Below are positions 5,844 through 55,490 of a stretch of 64,000 bases of DNA, piece after piece. The stretch is from Nitrosophilus alvini (GTDB lineage: Bacteria; Campylobacterota; Campylobacteria; Campylobacterales; Nitratiruptoraceae), in NCBI RefSeq assembly GCF_015100395.1, contig NZ_AP022847.1:310001-374000 (forward strand). Direction: 5' to 3'. The notes beneath the pieces were generated by a model that saw only the letters and a list, made by a program, of their open reading frames with translations, made no database searches and had not been told where the DNA came from. Positions within the stretch are counted from its first letter, which is position 1. Every line of letters starts with the position of its first letter. The translations under genes were made by a program, and so were the position numbers.

Positions 5844-5868
5844 ATTATAAACAGCTACAGTATGTCAA
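5844..5868 (-). promoter_or_regulatory. Possible rho promoter
   Basis: On the reverse strand TTGACA (5868-5863) precedes TATAAT (5849-5844) with only 13 bp between them. An alternative AATAAA at 5846-5841 gives 16 bp. The short spacing makes this tentative. The TTGACA directly abuts the first large repeat at 5869. Confidence 0.35.
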
Positions 5869-5967
5869 GGGAGAGCCGTAAAGAAAAAGCAAACTGCTTT
5901 GCTTTTTCAGGCTCGCACGGCGAGGCGAATATGCGGGCGAAGCCTGCATAGCCTACGCCAGTTTACC
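5869..5967 (+). repeat. Hairpin-module repeat, copy A (99 nt)
   Basis: This intergenic module has two hairpins. The first has an inner 11-bp stem with a CTGC loop (inner arms 5883-5893 and 5898-5908) and an outer stem GAGCC (5873-5877) with GGCTC (5910-5914). The second is built on ATGCGGGC and GCCTGCAT around a GAA loop, flanked by GGCG and CGCC arms, and the module ends in CAGTTTACC. It is identical base for base to copy B, 126 bp away. Related modules at 26.1 and 55.3-55.5 kb keep the fold with different stem sequences. Confidence 0.88.
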
Positions 5968-5994
5968 GAAGAAGGCTGAAGGACGAAGGTTGAA
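5968..5994. repeat. GAAGGTT-family heptamers between hairpin modules
   Basis: Degenerate 7-mers (GAAGGCT, GAAGGAC, GAAGGTT) link the two identical hairpin modules. The same 7-mer family occurs inside waaF and near 6.2 and 55.4 kb. Confidence 0.75.
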
Positions 5995-6152
5995 GGGAGA
6001 GCCGTAAAGAAAAAGCAAACTGCTTTGCTTTTTCAGGCTCGCACGGCGAGGCGAATATGCGGGCGAAGCCTGCATAGCCTACGCCAGTTTACCTATAGAA
6101 TGCACGGCGATGGCGATGTGCAGAGCGGAGCGATTGCACCGCCAGACGCCAG
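5995..6152 (+). repeat. Hairpin-module repeat, copy B plus a third hairpin
   Basis: Bases 5995-6093 repeat copy A exactly. They are followed by a second unit with the same flanks (GCACGGCGA start, CGCCAGTTCACCG end) but another interior. Its stems are GGCG (6106-6109) with CGCC (6147-6150), TGGCG (6111-6115) with CGCCA (6140-6144), and GTGCA (6118-6122) with TGCAC (6135-6139). No open reading frame or known RNA is recognised here. The 5750-6228 interval contains only these repeats and the possible rho promoter. Confidence 0.85.
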
Positions 6153-6158
6153 TTCACC

Positions 6159-6236
6159 GAATAAGGACGAAAGAATAAGGAAGAAGGACGAAGGTTGAAG
6201 GTTGAGCAAACTGCTCACCAATCACCAATCACGAAA
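6159..6236. repeat. Mixed heptamer array downstream of the 130-residue membrane protein
   Basis: GAAGGTT-type heptamers (6159-6206) run into a small GAGCA/TGCTC hairpin and then ATCACCA/ATCACGA heptamers (6213-6236). The ATCACGA part reads antisense to the flanking genes. The stop codon of the adjacent reverse-strand gene lies inside the array. Confidence 0.7.
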
Positions 6237-7212: not shown

Positions 7213-7303
7213 GTTAGTGTTAGTGTGGGTGTGGGCGAATACGGATCACCAATCGCCAATCACGAGTTACGAATCACGAATCACGAGTCACCAATTACGA
7301 ATC
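7213..7303 (+). repeat. Composite hexamer-heptamer element before ccoI
   Basis: GTGTTA/GTGTGG hexamers (7213-7236) are followed by a GCGAATAC joint and then ATCACGA-type heptamers (7245-7303). They end just before the AAAAGGA ribosome site of the P-type ATPase. The whole 106-bp spacer consists of this element plus the ribosome site. Confidence 0.85.
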
Positions 7304-7316
7304 AAAAGGAAAATAG

Positions 7317-9737
7317 TTGTCGAAAATCAAATGTGACCATTGCCATCTGGAGTTTGATGAAAAAGTTATGATAGAAGATGATTTAGGCGGCGAAAAAAGA
7401 TATTTTTGCTGCAAAGGGTGCCAGGGGGTATATCATCTTCTCAAAGAGGAGGGACTTGATACTTTCTATGACAAACTCGGGGATAACAAACTAGAACCTG
7501 CTGTTGCGGCTACAGAAAAGGATGATCTGGAAAAGTTTGATCTTGATGGTTTTGAAAAAAAATATGTCAAAAAAAGCAAAGAGGGACTAAATGAAATCAA
7601 TCTTATTATAGAAGGAATTCACTGTGCAGCTTGTGTATGGCTAAATGAAAAAGTTTTGCATCAGACTCCCGGTATCATAGAAGCTTCGATAAACTACTCA
7701 AACAACAAAGCAAAAATTGTCTGGGATCCTGATGAAATAAAACTCTCTGAAATTATAAGAAAAATAAGATCAATCGGTTACAATGCCTATCCTTACGATG
7801 CACAACTGCAAGAAGAGAGAGCCGTTAAAGCAAGACGGGACTATTATGCCAGGATATTAGTTGCAGTTTTTGCCACAATGAACATAATGTGGATTGCTAT
7901 TGCTAAATATGTAGGCTTTTTCACGGGTATGAATCGCGATATTAAAGATATATTGAATGTTGCAGAATTTATACTCGCGACTCCCGCCCTTTTCTATAGC
8001 GGATGGGTATATTTTAGGGGTGCATATTACGGTCTTAAAAACGGTTTTGTTACTATGGATCTTCTTGTAGCGACCGGTGCGACACTTGCATACGTTTACT
8101 CTATCTATGCAATGATAACGAGAACAGGAGAAGTATATTTTGACTCTGTTACCATGATAGTAACTTTCGTGCTGGTTGGCAAATATCTTGAAGTTTTAAG
8201 TAAGAAGAATGCTGTAGATACCATAGATAAGCTCCTGGGAACTGTTCCCACGGAAGTAACTGTGATAAAAGACAATGAAAAAGCTCTTGTAAGTATAGAA
8301 GCCGTTCGCCCGGGGGATTTGATAGAGTTAAAGCCGGGCGAAAAAGTTGCGATAGATGGGACTATAGTTACTGGTTCGGCATCTTTTGATGAAAGCTCGC
8401 TTACAGGAGAGAGCGAACCTGTTTTTAAAAAAGAGGGTGACGAGGTTCTTAGCGGTTCAATATGCCTTGATGGCGTAGTTAGATATGAAGCCAAAAAAGA
8501 TTTCAATACCTCTTTACTTTCAAATATAATAACACTTCTTGAAGACTCTATCACCAAAAAACCTCGTATTGAGAAACTTGTAAACCGGATATCGAGATAT
8601 TTTTCCGTAACGGTTTTGAGTATAGCGGTATTGACTCTTATAGCATGGTATATATATACAGGCTCTTTTGAAAAAGCGTTGATTGTTGCAATTTCAGCCA
8701 TTGTAATAGCATGCCCATGCGCATTGAGTCTGGCCACTCCTATGGCTACACTTGTGGGGATAAATTGGGCGGCAAAACACGGGATTTTATTTAAAGAAGC
8801 CGGTTTTATTGAGACAATGGCTAAAAGTGATATGCTTGTTTTGGATAAAACCGGAACGATTACCGAAGGAAAACCGAAAGTTGTTGACGCCTCATTTTTG
8901 AAAGAGTTTGACCGCTCGTTTCTTTACTCGCTTGTTTTGACTTCAAATCATCCTATAAGCCGGGGAGTTGCGGATTTTATAAAGGATGAAGGAGTAAAAA
9001 CGCTGGAGCTGGAAAATATAGAATCTATAGAAGCAAAAGGAGTAGTAGCGGAATATAAAGGAAAGAGACTAATAGGAGGAAATCCGGAACTACTTAAAGA
9101 AAAGGGTATAAAATTTGAGTATGAAGGGGAAGATTCCGTTTTTATTTTTGCCATAGATGATAAAGTGTGTGCCCTGTTTGAACTTAGAGACACACCAAGA
9201 AGCGGAGCTGCAGAAGCTGTAAAGAAAATAAAAGAGATAGGCATTAGAGTTGTAATGCTTACAGGAGACAATGAAAAAGCTGCAAAAAGAGTTGCAAAAG
9301 AGGTTGGTATAGAGGAGTTTTACGCAAAACTTCTGCCGCAGGAAAAAGCTATGAAGATAGAGGAGTTTCGTAAAGAAGGGCATATCATAGTGATGGCAGG
9401 AGATGGTATAAATGACACAGTGGCTTTGTCTTTGAGTGATATATCCATAGCTATGGGCAGCGGAGCGGATATCGCAATAAGTGTAAGTGATGTTGTCCTT
9501 CTTGACGAAGAGCCCAAGACCCTTTATAATGCTTATGTTATAAGCAGAAGAGTCTATAAATTTGTGAAACAAAATCTTGCTCTCTCTTTGATATATAACT
9601 CAATAGCTTTGCCTTTGGCTGTAGCGGGTTTTGTGAATCCTCTGATAGCAGCTATTTCTATGTCGCTGAGTTCCTTGCTTGTAGTGGGAAATTCGATCAG
9701 GATAAAGAGAGTTAGTGTGAGTGTGAGTGAATACTGA
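7317..9737 (+). CDS. ccoI: Copper-translocating P-type ATPase for cbb3 oxidase assembly
   Basis: This membrane pump is predicted to export Cu(I) for cbb3 cytochrome oxidase maturation. The cytosolic N-terminus has a cysteine-rich metal site (C6, C9, C31, C32, C35) typical of CcoI/FixI, then a heavy-metal domain with CAAC at 103-106. The transmembrane CPC motif is near residue 465 and the phosphorylation motif DKTGT near 507. The start is TTG with AAAAGGA seven bases upstream. The ccoS gene follows, which supports the assignment over a general CopA. The last residues, VSVSVSEY, are encoded by GTGTGA hexamers of the intergenic element, so the C-terminus has been extended or replaced by repeat sequence. 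Confidence 0.92.
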   Translation: MSKIKCDHCHLEFDEKVMIEDDLGGEKRYFCCKGCQGVYHLLKEEGLDTFYDKLGDNKLEPAVAATEKDDLEKFDLDGFEKKYVKKSKEGLNEINLIIEGIHCAACVWLNEKVLHQTPGIIEASINYSNNKAKIVWDPDEIKLSEIIRKIRSIGYNAYPYDAQLQEERAVKARRDYYARILVAVFATMNIMWIAIAKYVGFFTGMNRDIKDILNVAEFILATPALFYSGWVYFRGAYYGLKNGFVTMDLLVATGATLAYVYSIYAMITRTGEVYFDSVTMIVTFVLVGKYLEVLSKKNAVDTIDKLLGTVPTEVTVIKDNEKALVSIEAVRPGDLIELKPGEKVAIDGTIVTGSASFDESSLTGESEPVFKKEGDEVLSGSICLDGVVRYEAKKDFNTSLLSNIITLLEDSITKKPRIEKLVNRISRYFSVTVLSIAVLTLIAWYIYTGSFEKALIVAISAIVIACPCALSLATPMATLVGINWAAKHGILFKEAGFIETMAKSDMLVLDKTGTITEGKPKVVDASFLKEFDRSFLYSLVLTSNHPISRGVADFIKDEGVKTLELENIESIEAKGVVAEYKGKRLIGGNPELLKEKGIKFEYEGEDSVFIFAIDDKVCALFELRDTPRSGAAEAVKKIKEIGIRVVMLTGDNEKAAKRVAKEVGIEEFYAKLLPQEKAMKIEEFRKEGHIIVMAGDGINDTVALSLSDISIAMGSGADIAISVSDVVLLDEEPKTLYNAYVISRRVYKFVKQNLALSLIYNSIALPLAVAGFVNPLIAAISMSLSSLLVVGNSIRIKRVSVSVSEY

Positions 9738-9795
9738 TTGCCAATTACGAATCACGAATCACGAATCACAAATCACGAATAATGAATTACGAATT
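9711..9795 (+). repeat. Composite hexamer-heptamer element between ccoI and ccoS
   Basis: GTGTGA hexamers (9711-9729) overlap the 3' end of ccoI. A GTGAATAC joint and about eight ATTACGA/ATCACGA heptamers (9737-9795) follow, ending before the AAAGGA ribosome site of ccoS. Order and orientation match the element before ccoI. Confidence 0.88.
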
Positions 9796-11100: not shown

Positions 11101-12105
11101 ATGAAATACGGTGAAATAGACTTTAACAATAAAACCATTTTGATAACCGGTGGAGCGGGGTTTATAGGAAGCAATCTGGCTTTTTATTTTCAGGAAAATT
11201 ATCCGGAAGCAAAAGTCGTCGTTTTTGATCTTTTCAGAACGGAAGAGAGGTTTTCAAACGGCAATCTTAAAAGTTTCGGTCATTTTAAAAATCTTCTTGG
11301 TTTCAAGGGTGAAATAATAAGCGGTGATATCAATAATAAAGAGGATTTAAAAAGGCTTCTTGATTTTCGGTTTGATTATATATTCCATGAAGCTGCTATC
11401 AGTGACACTACGGTTCAAGATCAGAAAATCATGATAGATACAAATGTAAATGCCTTTAAAGATCTTTTGGATATGGCAGCCGAAATGAGAGCCGTTATGG
11501 TATATGCTTCCAGTGGCGCAACATACGGGAAACTTCCGGCTCCACATAAAGTAGGAACGGAGGCTCCTGCCAATATATACGGGTTTAGCAAACTTGCAAT
11601 GGATCATTTGGCCTATGACTATATGAAAAAGATAGATTTGCCGATTGTAGGACTTAGATATTTTAATGTATACGGTCCGAGAGAATACTTTAAAAACAAA
11701 ACAGCTTCAATGGTACTTCAGTTTGGTCTGCAAATACTGAGCGGCCAAAATCCGAAACTTTTTGTTGGTAGCGACAAAATAAAAAGAGACTTTATCTTTG
11801 TAGAGGATGTCATTCAGGCAAATATACTTGCCTGCAATCCAAAAAAGAGTGGTGTATATAATGTGGGAACGGGACTGGCCAGGAGCTTTCAGGATATTGT
11901 CGATATTTTGCAGCAAGAGCTCGGTACCGATATGCCTTGTGAATATATCCCAAATCCATACGTAAAACAGTATCAGTTTTTTACCGAAGCCGATATAGAG
12001 CCGACTCGCGAGTTTTTGGGATATGAGCCAAGATACACTTTGGAAGAAGGTATAAAAGCGGATATCCCGTATATAAAAAAGATTTTTGAAGAAGAGATAA
12101 AATAG
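11101..12105 (+). CDS. hldD: ADP-L-glycero-D-manno-heptose 6-epimerase
   Basis: This short-chain dehydrogenase/reductase-type epimerase makes the final ADP-heptose isomer. The NAD(P)-binding GGAGFIGSN lies at residues 18-26 and the catalytic YGFSK (YxxxK) near 160. A characteristic RYFNVYGPRE segment follows. The length of 334 residues is normal. It lies 20 bp after gmhB and its stop directly precedes the ATG of hldE. Confidence 0.95.
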   Translation: MKYGEIDFNNKTILITGGAGFIGSNLAFYFQENYPEAKVVVFDLFRTEERFSNGNLKSFGHFKNLLGFKGEIISGDINNKEDLKRLLDFRFDYIFHEAAISDTTVQDQKIMIDTNVNAFKDLLDMAAEMRAVMVYASSGATYGKLPAPHKVGTEAPANIYGFSKLAMDHLAYDYMKKIDLPIVGLRYFNVYGPREYFKNKTASMVLQFGLQILSGQNPKLFVGSDKIKRDFIFVEDVIQANILACNPKKSGVYNVGTGLARSFQDIVDILQQELGTDMPCEYIPNPYVKQYQFFTEADIEPTREFLGYEPRYTLEEGIKADIPYIKKIFEEEIK

Positions 12106-13530
12106 ATGGAAATTTTGAAAAAATCAAAACCAAAAATCCTCGTTGTTGGGGATCTGATGATAGATCATTACCTATGGGGCAGGTGTGAGAGGATCTCTCC
12201 CGAAGCTCCGGTCCAGGTTGTGGATATCAAAAATGAAAGCCTCGTTTTGGGGGGTGCTGGTAATGTTCTAAATAACCTGTTGGCATTCGGGGCGGATGTA
12301 AACGTTGCGAGTGTGGTAGGTGATGATGAAAACGGAGAGTGGCTCGAGAAGAGACTCTCAGACAGAGGTGTCAAAAAGCTTGTGCTTATAAAAGAAGATG
12401 GAAGAAAAACAAGCAAAAAAACAAGAGTTATCGCTTCGCATCAGCAGATTGTGAGATTTGACAAAGAGAGCAAAGAGGATATAAATGAAAATTCACAAAA
12501 AGAGCTTGTGGGGAGTGTCAAGAGAAACATAGATGATTTTGATTTGATACTGCTTTCCGATTACGGTAAAGGGATTTTGACCGAAAATGTTACAAAAGAG
12601 ATAATAGATGCGGCAAGAGATGCCGGCGTAAAGGTTTTTGTCGATCCAAAAGGCACTGACTACTCGAAATATACCGGTGCCACTTTGATAACTCCAAATA
12701 AAAAAGAGGCTTCCCTTGCGACAGGCATAGATATAAAAGATGAAGAGAGTCTGAGAAAAGCGGGATTCAAACTGAAAAACGAACTAAAACTTGATAATGT
12801 GATTATTACTCTATCTGAAGAGGGAATGGCCATATTTGAAGATGAAATGACAAAGATTCCGACCGCGGCACGTGAGGTATATGATGTGACCGGGGCCGGT
12901 GATACTGTTTTGGCAGCTTTGGGATTTGCTGTATCTGTCGGAAAGGGTTTGAAAGAGGCTGCAAGATTTGCAAACCTGGCAGCCGGAGTTGTTGTGGGAA
13001 AAGTGGGATGCGCTACAGCAACGATAGAGGAGATAGAGGAGTATGAGAGTTCTTTGCACAAAAGCAGCAGCGACAGCCATATAAAAAGTTTCGATGAGAT
13101 AGAAAAAATTGCCGGTTTATTGAAAGAGAAAGGAAAAAAAGTTGTCTTTACAAACGGCTGTTTTGATATATTGCATATAGGGCATGTCAAATATCTCGAA
13201 AAAGCGAAAGCTTTGGGTGACGTTTTGATAGTAGGACTCAATTCTGATAATTCTGTCAAAAGACTCAAAGGAGAAAATAGACCGGTAAATGAGCAGTATG
13301 ACCGTGCATATCTGCTTGCAGCGCTTGAAGCAGTTGACTATGTTGTTATATTTGACGAAGACACTCCTTATGAACTGATAAAGAGAGTAAAACCCGATGT
13401 TCTTGTAAAAGGGGGAGACTACAAAGACAAGGAAGTTGTGGGAAGTGACATTGCAAAAGAGGTTAAGCTTATAGATTTTGTAGAGGGAAAAAGCACTACA
13501 GGAATTATAGAAAAAGTAAGAAAAAATTAG
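12106..13530 (+). CDS. hldE: Bifunctional heptose 7-phosphate kinase / heptose 1-phosphate adenylyltransferase
   Basis: This is the two-domain heptose enzyme. The N-terminal ribokinase-like domain (about 1-320) carries the DVTGAGDT catalytic motif near residue 265. The C-terminal nucleotidyltransferase domain (about 340-474) has TNGCFDILHIGH. It phosphorylates heptose 7-phosphate and later adenylates heptose 1-phosphate. The fused form is common in Proteobacteria. It starts immediately after the hldD stop. Confidence 0.96.
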   Translation: MEILKKSKPKILVVGDLMIDHYLWGRCERISPEAPVQVVDIKNESLVLGGAGNVLNNLLAFGADVNVASVVGDDENGEWLEKRLSDRGVKKLVLIKEDGRKTSKKTRVIASHQQIVRFDKESKEDINENSQKELVGSVKRNIDDFDLILLSDYGKGILTENVTKEIIDAARDAGVKVFVDPKGTDYSKYTGATLITPNKKEASLATGIDIKDEESLRKAGFKLKNELKLDNVIITLSEEGMAIFEDEMTKIPTAAREVYDVTGAGDTVLAALGFAVSVGKGLKEAARFANLAAGVVVGKVGCATATIEEIEEYESSLHKSSSDSHIKSFDEIEKIAGLLKEKGKKVVFTNGCFDILHIGHVKYLEKAKALGDVLIVGLNSDNSVKRLKGENRPVNEQYDRAYLLAALEAVDYVVIFDEDTPYELIKRVKPDVLVKGGDYKDKEVVGSDIAKEVKLIDFVEGKSTTGIIEKVRKN

Positions 13531-14184: not shown

Positions 14185-15210
14185 CTATCCGGTCAGCTCT
14201 TTTGCCGCTTCTATAACCATTTGTGCGGATATTCCTTTCATACATTCATGATGTTTCAGCGGGCATACCCTTTTCATACAGGGGGCGCATTCTAGGTTCA
14301 GTGAGATTACTTTGCTTTTCGGATTTTTCCACTGGGATGTGGAAGTGTAGTCGGTGGGGCCGAATATTGCCACTGTTGGCACTTTGTAGGCGGCTGCGAT
14401 ATGCATAGGACCGCTGTCGTTTGTGATGAAAAGATCAAGAGCGGCGATACTCGATATAAGCTTTGCAATGTTTGTCTTTCCTGCAAGATTTTTATAGTTT
14501 TTTACTCCCAGTTTTAAAAGTTCATTTTCTATATCTTTTGCTATTTTAACTTCACCCGGCCCACCGAATATCAGTATATTGTACTTATCTGAGAGTGCGG
14601 CTGCTGTTTTTGCAAATCTGTCAGGATACCATCTCTTTGCGCTTCCGTAGGTGGCACCTGGGTTTATTCCAAGCAGAGGTCGAAGGTTGAAGGTTGAAGG
14701 GGGAATTTTGGGAAAATAGAGTTTCAGGTCGCCTGCCGGCAGGTTTGTATTTAAAATCTTGTTGATAAATGTGTTGTATTTTTCTACCTGATGAAGAGAG
14801 GTAGAAGGAAGAAGTTTGAAGGCTGAAGGGTTATATTGATAGCGTTTTTTTGAGCCGGTTAAAAACAGAAGAAGTTTAGAGAAAAAGTGGCTTCTAAAAG
14901 TGACGGCAATATCATGCGTACCTATCTCTTTTGCAAGTTTATAGGCGGCAAAAAGGCGGTTTTTGCTCTTTTTTGTATCGTCCACAAAGACTCTTTTGAC
15001 TTTGGGATAGTTTTTTAAAGCTTCTGTTGATACATAGCTTCCGACCAGGGTTATTTCTCCGGGATTCAAAGTTTTTATGAGGTTTTGAATGGCGGGAGTC
15101 GCCATGATGGTATCACCCAGCCATGTGGGAAGTTCTATAAGCAAGGTTGAAGGTGGAAGGTCGAAGGTGGAAGGTCGAAGGTTGACGGCTGAAGGGTTAG
15201 ATGAGTTCAT
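14185..15210 (-). CDS. waaF: LPS heptosyltransferase II with repeat-encoded insertions
   Basis: This GT9 enzyme adds the second heptose to the lipopolysaccharide inner core. The catalytic core is recognisable from LLIELPTWLGDTIMATPA near residue 24 to TNDSGPMHIAAA and the C-terminal cysteine pair. Three segments do not fit the family: the N-terminal 22 residues (with PSTFDLPPST), PSAFKLLPSTS near 128-138, and PSTFNLRP near 170. All are translated from CCTTCNA heptamer arrays, and all keep the reading frame. Start choice is uncertain: ATG at 15210 overlaps the upstream glycosyltransferase by 14 bp and makes the repeat part of the protein. A TTG near 15140 would remove only the first insertion. 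Confidence 0.88.
   Translation of the reverse strand: MNSSNPSAVNLRPSTFDLPPSTLLIELPTWLGDTIMATPAIQNLIKTLNPGEITLVGSYVSTEALKNYPKVKRVFVDDTKKSKNRLFAAYKLAKEIGTHDIAVTFRSHFFSKLLLFLTGSKKRYQYNPSAFKLLPSTSLHQVEKYNTFINKILNTNLPAGDLKLYFPKIPPSTFNLRPLLGINPGATYGSAKRWYPDRFAKTAAALSDKYNILIFGGPGEVKIAKDIENELLKLGVKNYKNLAGKTNIAKLISSIAALDLFITNDSGPMHIAAAYKVPTVAIFGPTDYTSTSQWKNPKSKVISLNLECAPCMKRVCPLKHHECMKGISAQMVIEAAKELTG
14677..14705 (-). repeat. CCTTCNA heptamers inside waaF (third site)
   Basis: Three to four tandem heptamers, CCTTCAA/CCTTCGA on the coding strand, encode PSTFNLRP just before the conserved LLGINPG motif. The frame is kept. Confidence 0.85.
14796..14830 (-). repeat. CCTTCNA heptamers inside waaF (second site)
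   Basis: About four degenerate heptamers on the coding strand encode NPSAFKLLPSTS before the HQVEKY motif. The frame is kept, although flanking bases had to compensate for a copy number that is not a multiple of three. Confidence 0.8.
15143..15197 (-). repeat. CCTTCNA heptamers at the waaF 5' end
   Basis: Seven to eight tandem heptamers lie between the stop of the upstream glycosyltransferase and the first conserved waaF codons. On the coding strand they read CCTTCAG, then CCTTCGA and CCTTCCA in alternation. Confidence 0.88.
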
Positions 15211-16222
15211 AGATAACCTCTAAAGTTTTTTGGACATTTTTTTCTATGGTGTACTCTTTTGAAATCTCTCTCATCTCTTTTTGTATTTTGACAAGTTTAT
15301 CATTATTTTGCAAAAGGGTATCTATCTTTTTGACTACCGAAAGATCTTTTGGATTTTTCATTACAAGCTCTTTTGGAAGTATTTCTGCCGCACCGTTTTG
15401 TGCTGTTGTAAATACCACATTTTCAAAACTCATCGCTTCCAAAACTACGTTTGAAAATGGTTCGTATCGTGTAGGAAACAGAAATATATCCGAAGCTGCA
15501 TAGAAGTGGTCTATATCATTTCTTGGGCCTGTAAAAGTCACTTTTCCCTCAAGTCCCATAGCCTTTGCCATCTGTTTATATTTAGATATTTTTTTCTCTT
15601 TGCCCAGTATAAAAGCGTGATAGTCGCTGTTTAAAAGCGCCAATATCTGCAAAAACTCTGCCACTCCTTTTCTTTCAAAACCGCTTCCGGCAAAAAGAAT
15701 GATTTTTGAATCTTCTTTTATTCCAAATTCTTGGCCGATTTTCATTTTTGATTGTTCTTTGTCAAACTCTTTTATCTCTATACCGTTATAAATAACCGCT
15801 ATTTTATCAGCGTCGATTTTGTAATACTCAACAATCTGATTTTTTACCTGTTTGGAGTTTGCAATTATCTTTTTTGCGTTACGGAAACATTTTTTTTCAA
15901 GATAAAGATATGTTAAATGCAGGGGATTTAAAGATATACCTTTGGACTTTAAGAAGGCTTTATGTACTCCGTCACCCGCTCTGTAGATATCGGGGCAGAT
16001 GATGCGATCGAGCGAGAAATAGAATTTTTTCTCTTTTTTGCCGCATACCTGTTTGTTAAAAAGAAGAGCTTTAAGCCAGGATGGAAGCCATTTTGGAAAA
16101 TCTGCATGTATGATTTCATAATCGATATTTTTTTCTTTTAAAACATTCGCAACTCTCTCAAGATACCTTTCGGCTCCTCCATATGGAGTATATTTTTGGC
16201 GTATGAAACTAATTTTTTTCAT
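15197..16222 (-). CDS. Glycosyltransferase family 4 (WaaG-like)
   Basis: This GT-B glycosyltransferase of 341 residues has the N-terminal YTPYGGAERYLERV donor-site loop, IIANSKQVKNQI in the middle and a C-terminal PTRYEPFSNVVLEAMSF motif with the conserved EPFGxxxLE-type glutamates. The overall pattern resembles WaaG, the LPS core glucosyltransferase. The acceptor cannot be proved. It overlaps the waaL-like gene upstream by 14 bp and waaF downstream by 14 bp, so the reverse block 19.4 to 14.2 kb looks like one operon. Confidence 0.85.
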   Translation of the reverse strand: MKKISFIRQKYTPYGGAERYLERVANVLKEKNIDYEIIHADFPKWLPSWLKALLFNKQVCGKKEKKFYFSLDRIICPDIYRAGDGVHKAFLKSKGISLNPLHLTYLYLEKKCFRNAKKIIANSKQVKNQIVEYYKIDADKIAVIYNGIEIKEFDKEQSKMKIGQEFGIKEDSKIILFAGSGFERKGVAEFLQILALLNSDYHAFILGKEKKISKYKQMAKAMGLEGKVTFTGPRNDIDHFYAASDIFLFPTRYEPFSNVVLEAMSFENVVFTTAQNGAAEILPKELVMKNPKDLSVVKKIDTLLQNNDKLVKIQKEMREISKEYTIEKNVQKTLEVIYELI

Positions 16223-26914: not shown

Positions 26915-28009
26915 TCAGACTCCATAAAACTCTCTATACCATTTGACAAACTGCTCGACTCCGTACTCTATAGGAGTTCCAGGCTTATATCCCAAATCTC
27001 TTTCCAAAGCGCTGGTATCTGCCCATGTGGCAGGTACGTCTCCGGGTTGAATCGGGAGCATATTTTTCTTTGCCTCTTTGCCCAAAGCCTTCTCTATCGC
27101 TTTGATAAAATCCATCAGCTCCACCGGAGCGCCATTGCCTATGTTATAGACTCTGTAAGGTGCTTTGCTGGAAGCCGGATTTGGCTTTTTGCCGCTCCAC
27201 TCGGGATTTGGCTTTGCGGGATTGTCAATAACCCTGACCACACCTTCCACGATATCATCTATATATGTAAAATCTCTTTTCATTTTGCCATAATTAAATA
27301 CATCTATGGGTCTATTTTCTATGATCGCTTTGGTGAACAGAAAAAGTGCCATATCCGGTCTTCCCCATGGGCCATATACGGTAAAAAATCTAAGACCCGT
27401 TGTAGGAATGTTGTATAGATGGCTGTATGTATGTGCCATCAGTTCATTTGACTTTTTGCTTGCAGCATACAAGCTGATGGGATGGTCCACGTTGTCTTCG
27501 ACGCTGAATGGCATCTTCTCGTTTAGTCCGTATACACTGGAACTGCTGGCATAGGCTAGATGTTCTATATCATTGTGTCTGCAGGCTTCGAGTATATTTA
27601 AAAATCCTACGATATTGCTTTGGATGTATGCATCAGGGTTGGTTAGAGAGTATCGTACTCCTGCCTGTGCGGCCAAATTGCATACTCTGTCAAACTTTTC
27701 TTCAATAAACAGTTTATCAATCGCCTCTTTATCTTCCAAATCAATCTTGTAAAATGTGTGGTTCGGATATTTTTTACTTCTGTATTTTTTACCATATTCG
27801 AAATCGTTCTCTTCAAAACCCAACTCTTTCAATCTTCCGTATTTTACTCTGATGTCGTAGTAGTCGTTGATATTGTCTATACCTACTACCTCATCACCTC
27901 TTTCAAGAAGTCTAGTTGCAAGATGAAAGCCTATAAATCCGGCTGTACCGGTTATAAGAATTTTTTTTCGTGATTCGTGATTCGTGATTCGTGAATGGTT
28001 TTTGTCCAT
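26915..28009 (-). CDS. NAD-dependent epimerase, UDP-glucuronate 4-epimerase-like
   Basis: This extended SDR enzyme (364 residues) has the cofactor motif [11 protein letters not shown] and the catalytic YAASKKSNE segment. [10 protein letters not shown] is typical of UDP-glucuronate 4-epimerases (CapI family). With ugd nearby, the pair could make UDP-glucuronate and then UDP-galacturonate. The first 15 residues, containing [10 protein letters not shown], are translated ATCACGA heptamers inserted after the start codon. Without them the protein would begin near KKILITG, as homologues do. ATG follows the preceding stop directly (TAAATG). Confidence 0.88.
27967..27998 (-). repeat. ATCACGA heptamers inside the epimerase 5' end
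   Basis: Four tandem heptamers (CACGAAT on the coding strand) lie between the start codon and the first conserved codon and are read in frame. Confidence 0.88.
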
Positions 28010-28360
28010 TTATTTCGCCTTTATAAAATTTATAAGCCCATAGAGCATTTTTTTGATTCTGACAATATCTTCGATTGTCTCATCTATATTTTCAACAAAA
28101 CAGAGCCTTTTTGCCAGTAATAATTGTGTTTCAAGTTCGGATAATGAACCTAGCGAAATAAATAGAAACTGAATGAATTCTTTATTGCTCTGTCTTGAAG
28201 CGCCTTCTGCGATATTGCTTGGAATTGAGATTGTAGCTCTTTTTATTTGCAAAGTTAATCCGTATGTCTCTTCTTTTGGAAATGTCTGACAAAGTTTGTA
28301 TATCTTTTCCACTAAATCCATAGAGAGATTCCATACATCCAAATCTTTATGTTCTTTCAC
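28010..28360 (-). CDS. Four-helix-bundle protein (S23/IVP family)
   Basis: This 116-residue protein belongs to the four-helix-bundle family first known from intervening sequences in 23S rRNA genes. Features are KEHKDLDVWNLSMDLVEKIY at the start and RATISIPSNIAEGASRQSNKEF centrally. The function is unknown; members form pentamers and occur as stand-alone genes. GTG at 28360 has AAGGG six bases upstream and matches the usual KEHKDLDVW beginning, so the longer frame to 28402 is rejected. ATCACGA arrays lie on both sides, which suggests an inserted cassette between sugar-nucleotide genes. Confidence 0.85.
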   Translation of the reverse strand: MKEHKDLDVWNLSMDLVEKIYKLCQTFPKEETYGLTLQIKRATISIPSNIAEGASRQSNKEFIQFLFISLGSLSELETQLLLAKRLCFVENIDETIEDIVRIKKMLYGLINFIKAK

Positions 28361-28393
28361 TAATACCCTTTTAATCATAACCAACTTCAATTT

Positions 28394-28426
28394 ACCAATC
28401 ACGATTTACGAGTCACGAATTACGAA
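28394..28426 (+). repeat. ATCACGA heptamer array between ugd and the four-helix gene
   Basis: About four degenerate heptamers (ATCACGA, TTTACGA, GTCACGA, ATTACGA) lie on the forward strand, antisense to the flanking genes. They touch the ugd stop codon. Confidence 0.78.
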
Positions 28427-29781: not shown

Positions 29782-29799
29782 TCTCTTCCTTTTTGTTTG

Positions 29800-29874
29800 T
29801 AACTCGTGATTCGTGAATCGTGAATGGTTATACCCACACTCACACTCACACTTAAACTTAAATTCGTGAATCGT
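29800..29874 (-). repeat. Composite hexamer-heptamer element before ugd
   Basis: On the coding strand the order is heptamers (29874-29861), GTGTGA hexamers (29850-29832), a TATAACC joint, and ATCACGA heptamers (29829-29800). The AAGGAAG ribosome site of ugd follows. Order and direction match the elements before ccoI, ccoS and trpS. Confidence 0.85.
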
Positions 29875-46004: not shown

Positions 46005-46997
46005 TCAATTCTCAATATTACACTTTATTTCAAAAACAGCCCTGTTGACTGCTTCCATCTTTTTGGAAGCTACAATTTTTGCCTTTTTGTTTCCATTTTC
46101 TATGACAGAGTCGATATACTCCTCATCCAGTTTTTCTCTTCTCTCTCTAATTGGTTCCAGTACTCTCTCGATGGATTCAAGACACATTTTTTTGCAATCT
46201 ACGCAACCTATAGCCGCAGTTTTGCAGCCCTCGGCTACTTTTTGAACCATCTCTTCATCGCTGAACTCTTTGTGGTAGTCGTATACAAGGCAGACTTCAG
46301 GATCTCCAGGGTCTGTTCTCTTGACTCTTTGAGGATCTGTTTTGGCAGTTCTCAGTTTACTCCATATCTCCTCTTTTGTATCGGTAAGGTATATGGCATT
46401 GTTATAGCTTTTGCTCATTTTTCTGCCGTCAAGTCCCTGAAGTCTAGGAGTAGGACTGAGCAGCTCTTTGGGTTCTGTAAAAACTTCACACTCAAAGAGA
46501 TGGTGAAAACGTCTGACTATCTCTCTTGCGATCTCAATATGTGGTCTTTGATCTTCGCCTATCGGAACTGCTTGCGCATCGTAAAGAATAATGTCTGATG
46601 TCTGCAAAACAGGATATGTGAGGAAACCTGCCGTATGGATATCTTTTCCTTCCAGTTGCTGAAGCTGATCTTTATAAGTAGGGTTTCTCTCAAGCCATCC
46701 AAGTGGCGTTATCATATTTAAAAGTACGTAAAGTTCCGCATGCTCTTTTATATCACTTTGTACAAATAGAACACTTTTTTCAGGATCTATTCCAGCTGCA
46801 ATCCAGTCTTTGACAAGCTCTTTAGTGAGCTTTTTGAGATTGAGTTTGTCCTCATAACTTGTTGAAAGTGCATGCCAGTCTGCTACAAAGAAAAAACAGT
46901 CGTTTTCATTTTGAAGTTTTACCCAGTTCTTCAAAACACCAAGGTAGTGTCCAAGATGTAATTTTCCAGTAGGTCTCATTCCACTTACTATCCGCAT
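46005..46997 (-). CDS. trpS: Tryptophanyl-tRNA synthetase
   Basis: This class I synthetase (330 residues) has the HIGH-like HLGHY in GMRPTGKLHLGHYLG and the KMSKS motif in GLDGRKMSKSYNNAI. ATG at 46997 has GGGAG upstream and begins the conserved MRIVSGMRPTG. The reading frame extends further to 47054, but those codons (TNHQSRITNYE) are heptamer repeat and are rejected as coding. It follows der with a composite repeat in between. Confidence 0.95.
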   Translation of the reverse strand: MRIVSGMRPTGKLHLGHYLGVLKNWVKLQNENDCFFFVADWHALSTSYEDKLNLKKLTKELVKDWIAAGIDPEKSVLFVQSDIKEHAELYVLLNMITPLGWLERNPTYKDQLQQLEGKDIHTAGFLTYPVLQTSDIILYDAQAVPIGEDQRPHIEIAREIVRRFHHLFECEVFTEPKELLSPTPRLQGLDGRKMSKSYNNAIYLTDTKEEIWSKLRTAKTDPQRVKRTDPGDPEVCLVYDYHKEFSDEEMVQKVAEGCKTAAIGCVDCKKMCLESIERVLEPIRERREKLDEEYIDSVIENGNKKAKIVASKKMEAVNRAVFEIKCNIEN

Positions 46998-47010
46998 CTG
47001 CTCCCTTTTT

Positions 47011-47077
47011 TCGTAATTCGTGATTCGTGATTGGTGGTTAGTGACTGGTTTCACTCACACCCACACTCACACTCACT
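47011..47077 (-). repeat. Composite hexamer-heptamer element between der and trpS
   Basis: On the coding strand GTGTGA hexamers (47077-47051) are followed by GTGAAACCAGTCACTAACC and ATCACGA/ATTACGA heptamers (to 47011), then the GGGAG site of trpS. AGTGA and TCACT in the joint can form a small hairpin. The joint is almost the same as in the element before nusB. Confidence 0.88.
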
Positions 47078-53609: not shown

Positions 53610-53645
53610 ATATAAAGAGTGTTATCTCTTGCCGAACACCAATAA

Positions 53646-53743
53646 TGTGTGGGTGTGGGTGTGGTGAAACCGATCACTAACCACCAATCACGATTCACGA
53701 ATTACGAATTACGAATTAGAATCACGAATTAAAATTACGAATA
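53646..53743 (+). repeat. Composite hexamer-heptamer element before nusB
   Basis: GTGTGG hexamers (53646-53664), a GTGAAACCGATCACTAACC joint and about nine ATCACGA/ATTACGA heptamers (53671-53743) fill the ribH-nusB spacer up to AAAAGGA. GTGGT and ACCAC in the joint can pair, with GTGA and TCAC inside. It closely matches the element before trpS. Confidence 0.9.
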
Positions 53744-55274: not shown

Positions 55275-55490
55275 AGGCGCGTAAAGAAATCGTAAACTGC
55301 TACGCAGCTTTGCTGCTTATCGGCTGTCTAACGGTGCAGAGTGGAGCGATTGCACCGACAGACGCCAGTTCACCGAATAAGGATGAAGGTTGAAGGCTGA
55401 AGATTGAGCAAACTGCTTTGCTTTTTCAGGCTCGCACGGCGAGGCGAATATGCTGGCGAAGCCTACGCCGATTTGTCGAAAGAGGGCGAA
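55275..55490 (+). repeat. Hairpin-module repeat between mqnC and the M16 gene
   Basis: This mosaic contains a GGCGC-GTAAAG start like the 26-kb copy and a partly decayed CTGC hairpin. Its GTGCA-type unit has the arms CGGTGCA (55332-55338) and TGCACCG (55351-55357), with TGT/ACA and GGC/GCC outside. GAAGGTT heptamers follow (55378-55405). A second CTGC and ATGC-type unit (55405-55475) reads like copies A and B with a shortened hairpin. The 298-bp mqnC-M16 spacer holds only this and the hexamers at 55525-55548. Confidence 0.85.

Follow-up and report, generated by a model that had tools for sequence, protein, structure and literature searches.

Heptanucleotide repeat tracts translated in frame within waaF of Nitrosophilus alvini: probable insertions from a dispersed, species-specific repeat

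The waaF gene and its heptamer tracts

The window analysed here is a stretch of 64,000 nucleotides from the genome of Nitrosophilus alvini. It contains waaF (14185..15210, minus strand), which codes for lipopolysaccharide (LPS) heptosyltransferase II and lies in an LPS heptose cluster together with hldD, hldE and gmhA. The gene is intact, and its product of 341 amino acids belongs to TIGR02195 (171 bits, with a cut-off of 134.6) and PF01075. The AlphaFold model of the protein (mean pLDDT of 90) matched the structure of E. coli WaaF (1psw) with a TM score of 0.75, which supports a GT9 fold. The start of waaF is overlapped over 14 nt by an upstream glycosyltransferase gene (15197..16222, minus strand). 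The same gene order was found in three genomes of a related genus of the same family (genus g2: G001, G003 and G007; 70–73% identity).

The heptamer-derived motif CCTTCNACCTTCNA occurs six times in the window, always on the minus strand and within waaF, and was never obtained in 100 dinucleotide shuffles of the window. Ten copies were detected in the whole genome (1.81 Mb), and none of the reversed pattern used as control. Codon read-out of waaF located the repeats at three sites, all of them in coding orientation and in frame. Site 1 (15142..15195; 15143–15195 according to TRF) starts at the TAA stop codon of the glycosyltransferase gene and encodes residues 6–23, PSAVNLRPSTFDLPPSTL. Site 2 (14797..14829) encodes residues 128–138 (PSAFKLLPSTS), and site 3 (14677..14700) encodes residues 171–178 (PSTFNLRP), just before the strand LLGINPGATYG. 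The tracts are one-sided, measure 24–54 nt and contain 3.4 to 5.7 degenerate copies. The original prediction of CCTTCNA heptamers translated in frame at three sites was borne out by the read-out and by the intact reading frame. Sites 1 and 3 are clear arrays, while site 2 is the most degenerate and only a weak one, for which no TRF call was obtained.

As seven equals one modulo three, a run of heptamers cycles through all three frames and delivers the same heptapeptide from any starting frame. The peptide predicted from translation of the waaF array is NLRPSTFDLPPSTLL. The number of copies affects only the frame downstream of the array. In this respect, and in the weakness of site 2, the original prediction had to be corrected. 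In the AlphaFold model, site 1 forms a disordered tail, site 2 lies in a loop of low confidence (pLDDT of 69 for residues 131–140) and site 3 directly precedes the strand formed by residues 179–183.

The possibility that the N-terminal extension is an annotation artefact was rejected for genus g2. There, the plausible starts upstream of the conserved core are residue 1 and, in one species, a TTG located two codons later. No other plausible start precedes the core and the N-terminal tract must therefore be translated. In waaF of the window, the TTG at residue 23 is a possible alternative start.

Comparison with WaaF homologues

The WaaF proteins were aligned with initially about 70 and later 122 distinct sequences. 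Homologues outside the clade begin directly with MKI-LIELPTW and mostly display a loop of 15–16 residues, against 21 in the window. One separate group of WaaF has loops of 24–30 residues without heptamers. Most homologues from Campylobacterota lack the tract segments, which are thus insertions relative to them. The N-terminal and loop segments are present as heptamer DNA in genus g2, and the N-terminal tract of the window is longer by three heptamers (21 nt, seven residues). Site 3 has a loosely similar stretch in G003 and no clear heptamer counterpart in G001 and G007. Relatives encoding the same residues without heptamer DNA were looked for and not found.

Autocorrelation analysis identified strict period-7 DNA in 14 of the 122 waaF genes, located only at the N-terminus (family f1, to which N. 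alvini belongs) or in the loop of site 2. With periods 8 and 14 included, the number of array-bearing genes rises to 16. The unit of the loop differs between lineages: CCTTCAA in family f1, CTCAACG in G045, ATCGACC in G059 and G072, CTACCCR in G024, G084, G130, L044 and L046, CCAACGA in G108, ACGACAA in L045, and units of eight nucleotides in G003 and G180. The encoded peptides differ by species accordingly (PSTFNLQ, STLNAQR, RLSTIDH, YPLPTTH, NDQRPMT). One close relative without array (L145, G170) still has an intact WaaF. These data support the suggestion of a repeat-driven evolution of the protein: homologues lack the segments, g2 shares two of them, and other lineages display other heptamers in the same loop.

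On a tree of 46 waaF genes calculated without the array columns, the presence of the array changes four times and its unit eight times. Turnover across species was also observed at the N-terminus, where L015 has four copies of CTTCAAA and L016 four copies of CCTTCAA. Between L146 and L151, the WaaF of which are 90% identical, the units ACCAACG and ACCATCG differ by one base in almost all copies. From this it follows that homogenisation of waaF arrays in place probably also occurs.

Heptamer segments in other proteins

Sense, in-frame heptamer segments were identified in further conserved proteins, namely SdhB/FrdB and DsbD of G045 and the dTDP-glucose 4,6-dehydratase RmlB of G059. A TviB-like UDP-sugar dehydrogenase of G003 contains PSTFNLQPSTL in frame. 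The SdhB/FrdB iron-sulfur subunit of G045 (L247, 1293–2078) has two segments of the STLNAQR type (STLNAQRSTL), one of which is located between the Fe-S cluster motifs. The status as insertion was judged from the alignment for WaaF and from family profiles for the other four proteins. With several proteins affected, the case is not rare. The segments in proteins unrelated to LPS argue for a general insertion process limited by tolerance, and against a dedicated LPS switch. The array near the gene of the tryptophanyl-tRNA synthetase TrpRS (46005–47054) was rejected as protein segment, since an internal ATG turns it into a leader.

Genome-specific heptamer dialects

Statements on the entire window genome (G000) derive from searches for patterns and from sampled stretches that sum to 464 kb. 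Dimers of CCTTCAA were detected at four loci outside waaF and dimers of AATCACG at 13 places. Heptamer arrays in the sampled stretches are mainly intergenic, as expected from a dispersed heptanucleotide repeat. In the window, arrays of the GAAGGTT type (the CCTTCAA family found in waaF) are located at 5971..6206, between genes, and at 55375..55407, outside conserved genes. The region 5867–6093 is a perfect tandem duplication of 126 nt (1.8 copies) that includes heptamers of the GAAGGTT type, and a similar stretch (AGCAAACTGCTTTGCTTTTTCAGGCTCGC...) is present again near 55405–55470. Composite leaders, in which a GTGTGA/CACACT hexamer array lies beside an AATCACG heptamer array, were seen at 7214–7304, 9711–9794, 29797–29855, 47005–47076 and 53645–53742. 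They often stop just ahead of the ribosome-binding site and start codon of a gene. Period-6 arrays are likewise frequent in the stretches of this genome.

The waaF units were found to follow the repeats of their host genomes. Outside waaF, G045 has 22 dimers of CTCAACG, which are absent from 12 other genomes. Counts for ATCGACY are 26 in G059, two in G072 and at most one elsewhere. CTACCCR reaches 95 in G024 and 6 in G084, yet it also occurs 24 times in G059 and 13 times in G045; in G130, the assembly of which is fragmented, this unit is absent outside waaF. CCTTCAA is present in the four genomes of family f1 (G000, G001, G003, G007) and in none of nine genomes of families f4 and f6. Permutation of the waaF labels gave p = 0.0002 for the match of dialects, and 0.033 for families f4 and f6 alone; these values are optimistic, as the genomes (one per species) are phylogenetically related, and the unit patterns had been chosen after inspection of the waaF loops, which label permutation offsets only partly. 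Near-perfect intergenic arrays of about 14–16 copies, purer than those in waaF, were observed in G024 (L206, 6034–6135 and 7393–7509) and in G045 (L214, 13303–13416).

Because its unit matches the dialect of the host genome, the waaF loop apparently either receives its repeats from the pool present in that genome or is homogenised with this pool. A single ancestral loop array evolving without input from outside was rejected as full account, considering the eight changes of unit against four of presence and the match of dialects.

PF05635 cassettes with inverted heptamer arms

The window contains a gene of the PF05635/TIGR02436 four-helix-bundle family, annotated as "23S rRNA IVP" (28010..28402, minus strand; 3e-37 for PF05635, 4.8e-37 for TIGR02436). 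Its score of 127.5 bits lies far above the PF05635 cut-off of 33.8. The gene is flanked by heptamer arrays. The left arm (27961..28001), made of TTCGTGA heptamers, is read as the N-terminus of the adjacent epimerase gene (26915–28009), which is predicted to carry an array-encoded SRITNHES tail. The right arm (28390..28426), with heptamers of the AATCACG type, is inverted relative to the left one; it is more degenerate and falls under the threshold of the strict scan. A search of the window against Rfam gave no match.

Compared with other genes, PF05635 genes have such arrays at their flanks much more often. In 18 genomes searched, a period-7 array was found within about 200 bp of 35 of 49 PF05635 genes, compared to 86 of 1086 other genes defined by a simple longest-ORF model (Fisher p about 1e-25). 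Arrays on both sides were present for 19 of 49 and 7 of 1086 genes, respectively (Fisher p about 1e-22). The same association was seen with Bacteroidota and other genomes that were reached via distant WaaF relatives (12/30 versus 14/337; on both sides 7/30 versus 1/337), and it thus extends over Campylobacterales and Bacteroidota. In all 26 two-armed cassettes the arms share more sequence in inverted than in direct orientation. Two genomes without PF05635 (G008, G047) contain none and one period-7 array per 200 kb each, while most carriers display 2.5–15 arrays per 100 kb; G059 has none in the 80 kb sampled.

A PF05635 cassette occupies the hldD–hldE junction, near waaF, in eight relatives. 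The junction is empty in the window (12060..12180, plus strand), where the hldD stop codon is directly followed by the ATG of hldE. HldE of G001 and G007 has an N-terminus made up of the right arm of this cassette. The waaF loop shares more sequence with the arms of the hldD–hldE cassette of its own genome than with those of other genomes (exact permutation, p = 0.0006, again an optimistic value for related genomes sampled once per species). The unusual period-8 unit TCTCACCC of G180 is common to the waaF loop and the cassette arms, and no match between loop and arms was observed in G003, G024 and G096. Inverted ends (26 of 26) and presence or absence at an orthologous site (the hldD–hldE junction) are features of transposable elements. 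Inspection of the cassettes by eye revealed neither an enzyme for integration or mobility nor a duplicated target site, and no movement was seen.

Origin of the waaF tracts and alternative explanations

Taken together, the waaF tracts are best explained, with a probability of roughly 0.8, as fixed in-frame insertions derived from a dispersed, species-specific heptanucleotide repeat with the unit CCTTCAA. Pieces of this repeat would have entered waaF and would have been retained where the structure is tolerant, the orientation free of stop codons and the frame preserved. They behave as fixed parts of the protein with a slow turnover by units of three heptamers, and not as an ON/OFF switch. They are presumably functionally neutral. 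The inverted arms of PF05635 cassettes are a candidate source, because relatives have the cassette next to heptose genes close to waaF, and because arms are read as the N-terminal ends of adjacent gene products. Since the cassette of the window carries the AATCACG dialect and not CCTTCAA, the origin of CCTTCAA had to be deduced from relatives, and the chance that the PF05635 element is the source of the waaF arrays is estimated at somewhat below one half. Arms could be copied or inserted at new sites by movement of the cassette or by microhomology-driven template switching, and the copies that survive would be those that are stop-free and in frame, at gene starts or in tolerant loops.

Phase-variable LPS genes with tandem repeats are known from Haemophilus, Moraxella and Campylobacter, and waaF resembles them as an LPS gene with a repeat unit that is not a multiple of three. 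The original prediction had accordingly considered a phase-variation device, in which slippage would add or remove heptamers, displace the reading frame, toggle WaaF and thereby change the LPS core. The turnover of the N-terminal array between L015 and L016 would fit this idea, as would the frequency of heptamers, given as the commonest class of simple repeats of 5–11 nt in many genomes in the account of Mrazek 2007 cited in PMC4679880. The waaF arrays differ from phase-variable ones in being short and degenerate, and they were in frame in all genomes examined. They have few copies and are not the pure repeats of a contingency locus. All 16 array-bearing waaF (one genome per species) are open, a count that taken alone overstates the case, as the E-value filter could have hidden split genes; in searches without demand for long matches, which are able to reveal split genes, 10 of 10 were open as well. 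The N-terminal difference to genus g2 amounts to exactly three heptamers (21 nt), and similar segments are present in SdhB, DsbD and RmlB, for which ON/OFF switching would hardly be meaningful. The only waaF split at this loop, by a frameshift in G058 (L039, around 2060–2140), was rejected as OFF allele, since there is no array at its loop and only A/T-rich runs; it may represent a pseudogene or result from a homopolymer error. Phase variation is therefore considered very improbable.

Purely local polymerase slippage, by which each waaF array would have grown from a short seed without any traffic in the genome, finds some support in the locally homogenised appearance of the arrays and in the prevalence of period 7 in bacterial simple repeats, which has been linked to the contact length of the polymerase (PMC4679880). 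It does not account for the match of the loop unit with the dispersed dialect and with the nearby cassette arms, nor would separate slippage in each arm produce the inverted unit shared by the PF05635 arms in 26 of 26 cases, and we regard it as an unlikely explanation, with less than one chance in ten. The heptapeptides could also have been selected for a function, for instance by providing WaaF with a flexible linker or a surface for interaction, and the fairly stable presence of the loop array (four changes in the 46-gene tree) is in line with this. The unit changes eight times in the same tree, the residues are unrelated between species, the segments show low predicted order and the array-less close relative (G170) retains an intact WaaF, so that a selected function has very little probability. 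Insertion from the dispersed repeat agrees with the dialects, the segments in unrelated proteins and the comparison with homologues.

Relation to known repeat systems

Heptanucleotide repeats, including copies in open reading frames, have been described before. Repeats of TAACTGA occur in Beggiatoaceae, Cyanobacteria and Bacteroidetes (MacGregor, 2015, PMC4679880), and the long simple sequence repeats of Mrazek et al. (2007), as cited there, include heptanucleotides. The arrays presented here are similar in that they are tandem, dispersed, mostly intergenic and often located just upstream of start codons, and in that copies in open reading frames have a stop-free orientation and are read as a repeating heptapeptide. 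The repeats of MacGregor display one unit across phyla, whereas here many species-specific units were found, with the local unit filling the same enzyme loop in several lineages and with inverted arms around PF05635 genes. Geobacter metallireducens has 49 copies of GGGACCG (PMC2700814), which are likewise tandem heptamers present many times in a single genome, both in intergenic and in intragenic positions. In the part of that work considered, they are a single family interpreted as regulatory, and no link to PF05635 or to a conserved loop is described.

The Rickettsia palindromic elements (RPEs), palindromes of about 150 bp with a conserved peptide (PMC10969869), provide a precedent for the in-frame insertion of a dispersed repeat into conserved genes that are unrelated to one another, which the proteins tolerate. 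In-frame insertion into several unrelated genes is also seen here (WaaF, SdhB, DsbD, RmlB, TviB-like). The waaF tracts were not assigned to RPEs, as they are single-sided arrays of 24–54 nt with lineage-specific peptides and form no palindrome of about 100–150 nt.

The PF05635 cassettes recall another arrangement. Intervening sequences of 23S rRNA genes encode S23/IVP, a PF05635 open reading frame between inverted repeats able to form a stem. In the cassettes described above, the open reading frame lies between ordinary genes and the arms of the stem are tandem heptamer arrays. We tentatively propose, at slightly less than even odds, that PF05635 genes and their inverted heptamer arms together represent a hitherto undescribed type of spreading element in Campylobacterota and Bacteroidota, which would have lineage dialects and arms kept alike by copying, and the translated arms of which, at gene starts or in protein loops, would rewrite host proteins in frame, such as WaaF.

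A non-exhaustive literature search returned no relevant paper on heptamers in Sulfurovum or Epsilonproteobacteria, or on four-helix-bundle proteins associated with repeats. Within this search, no report was found of one enzyme loop that repeatedly uses the local dialect, or of inverted heptamer arms around PF05635 genes. The only hit, PMC10910872, lists 23S rRNA IVP in the legend of a figure that deals with the associations of CRISPR adaptation modules. The waaF loop offers a testable case in which short repeat DNA has changed a conserved enzyme again and again at the same position in different lineages without breaking it. The location of PF05635 genes between inverted heptamer arrays joins two puzzles, the prevalence of heptanucleotide repeats and the role of the four-helix-bundle (23S rRNA IVP) proteins, which are widespread. 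Should this connection prove causal, the heptamers would be the visible footprint of a common element that has so far no name.
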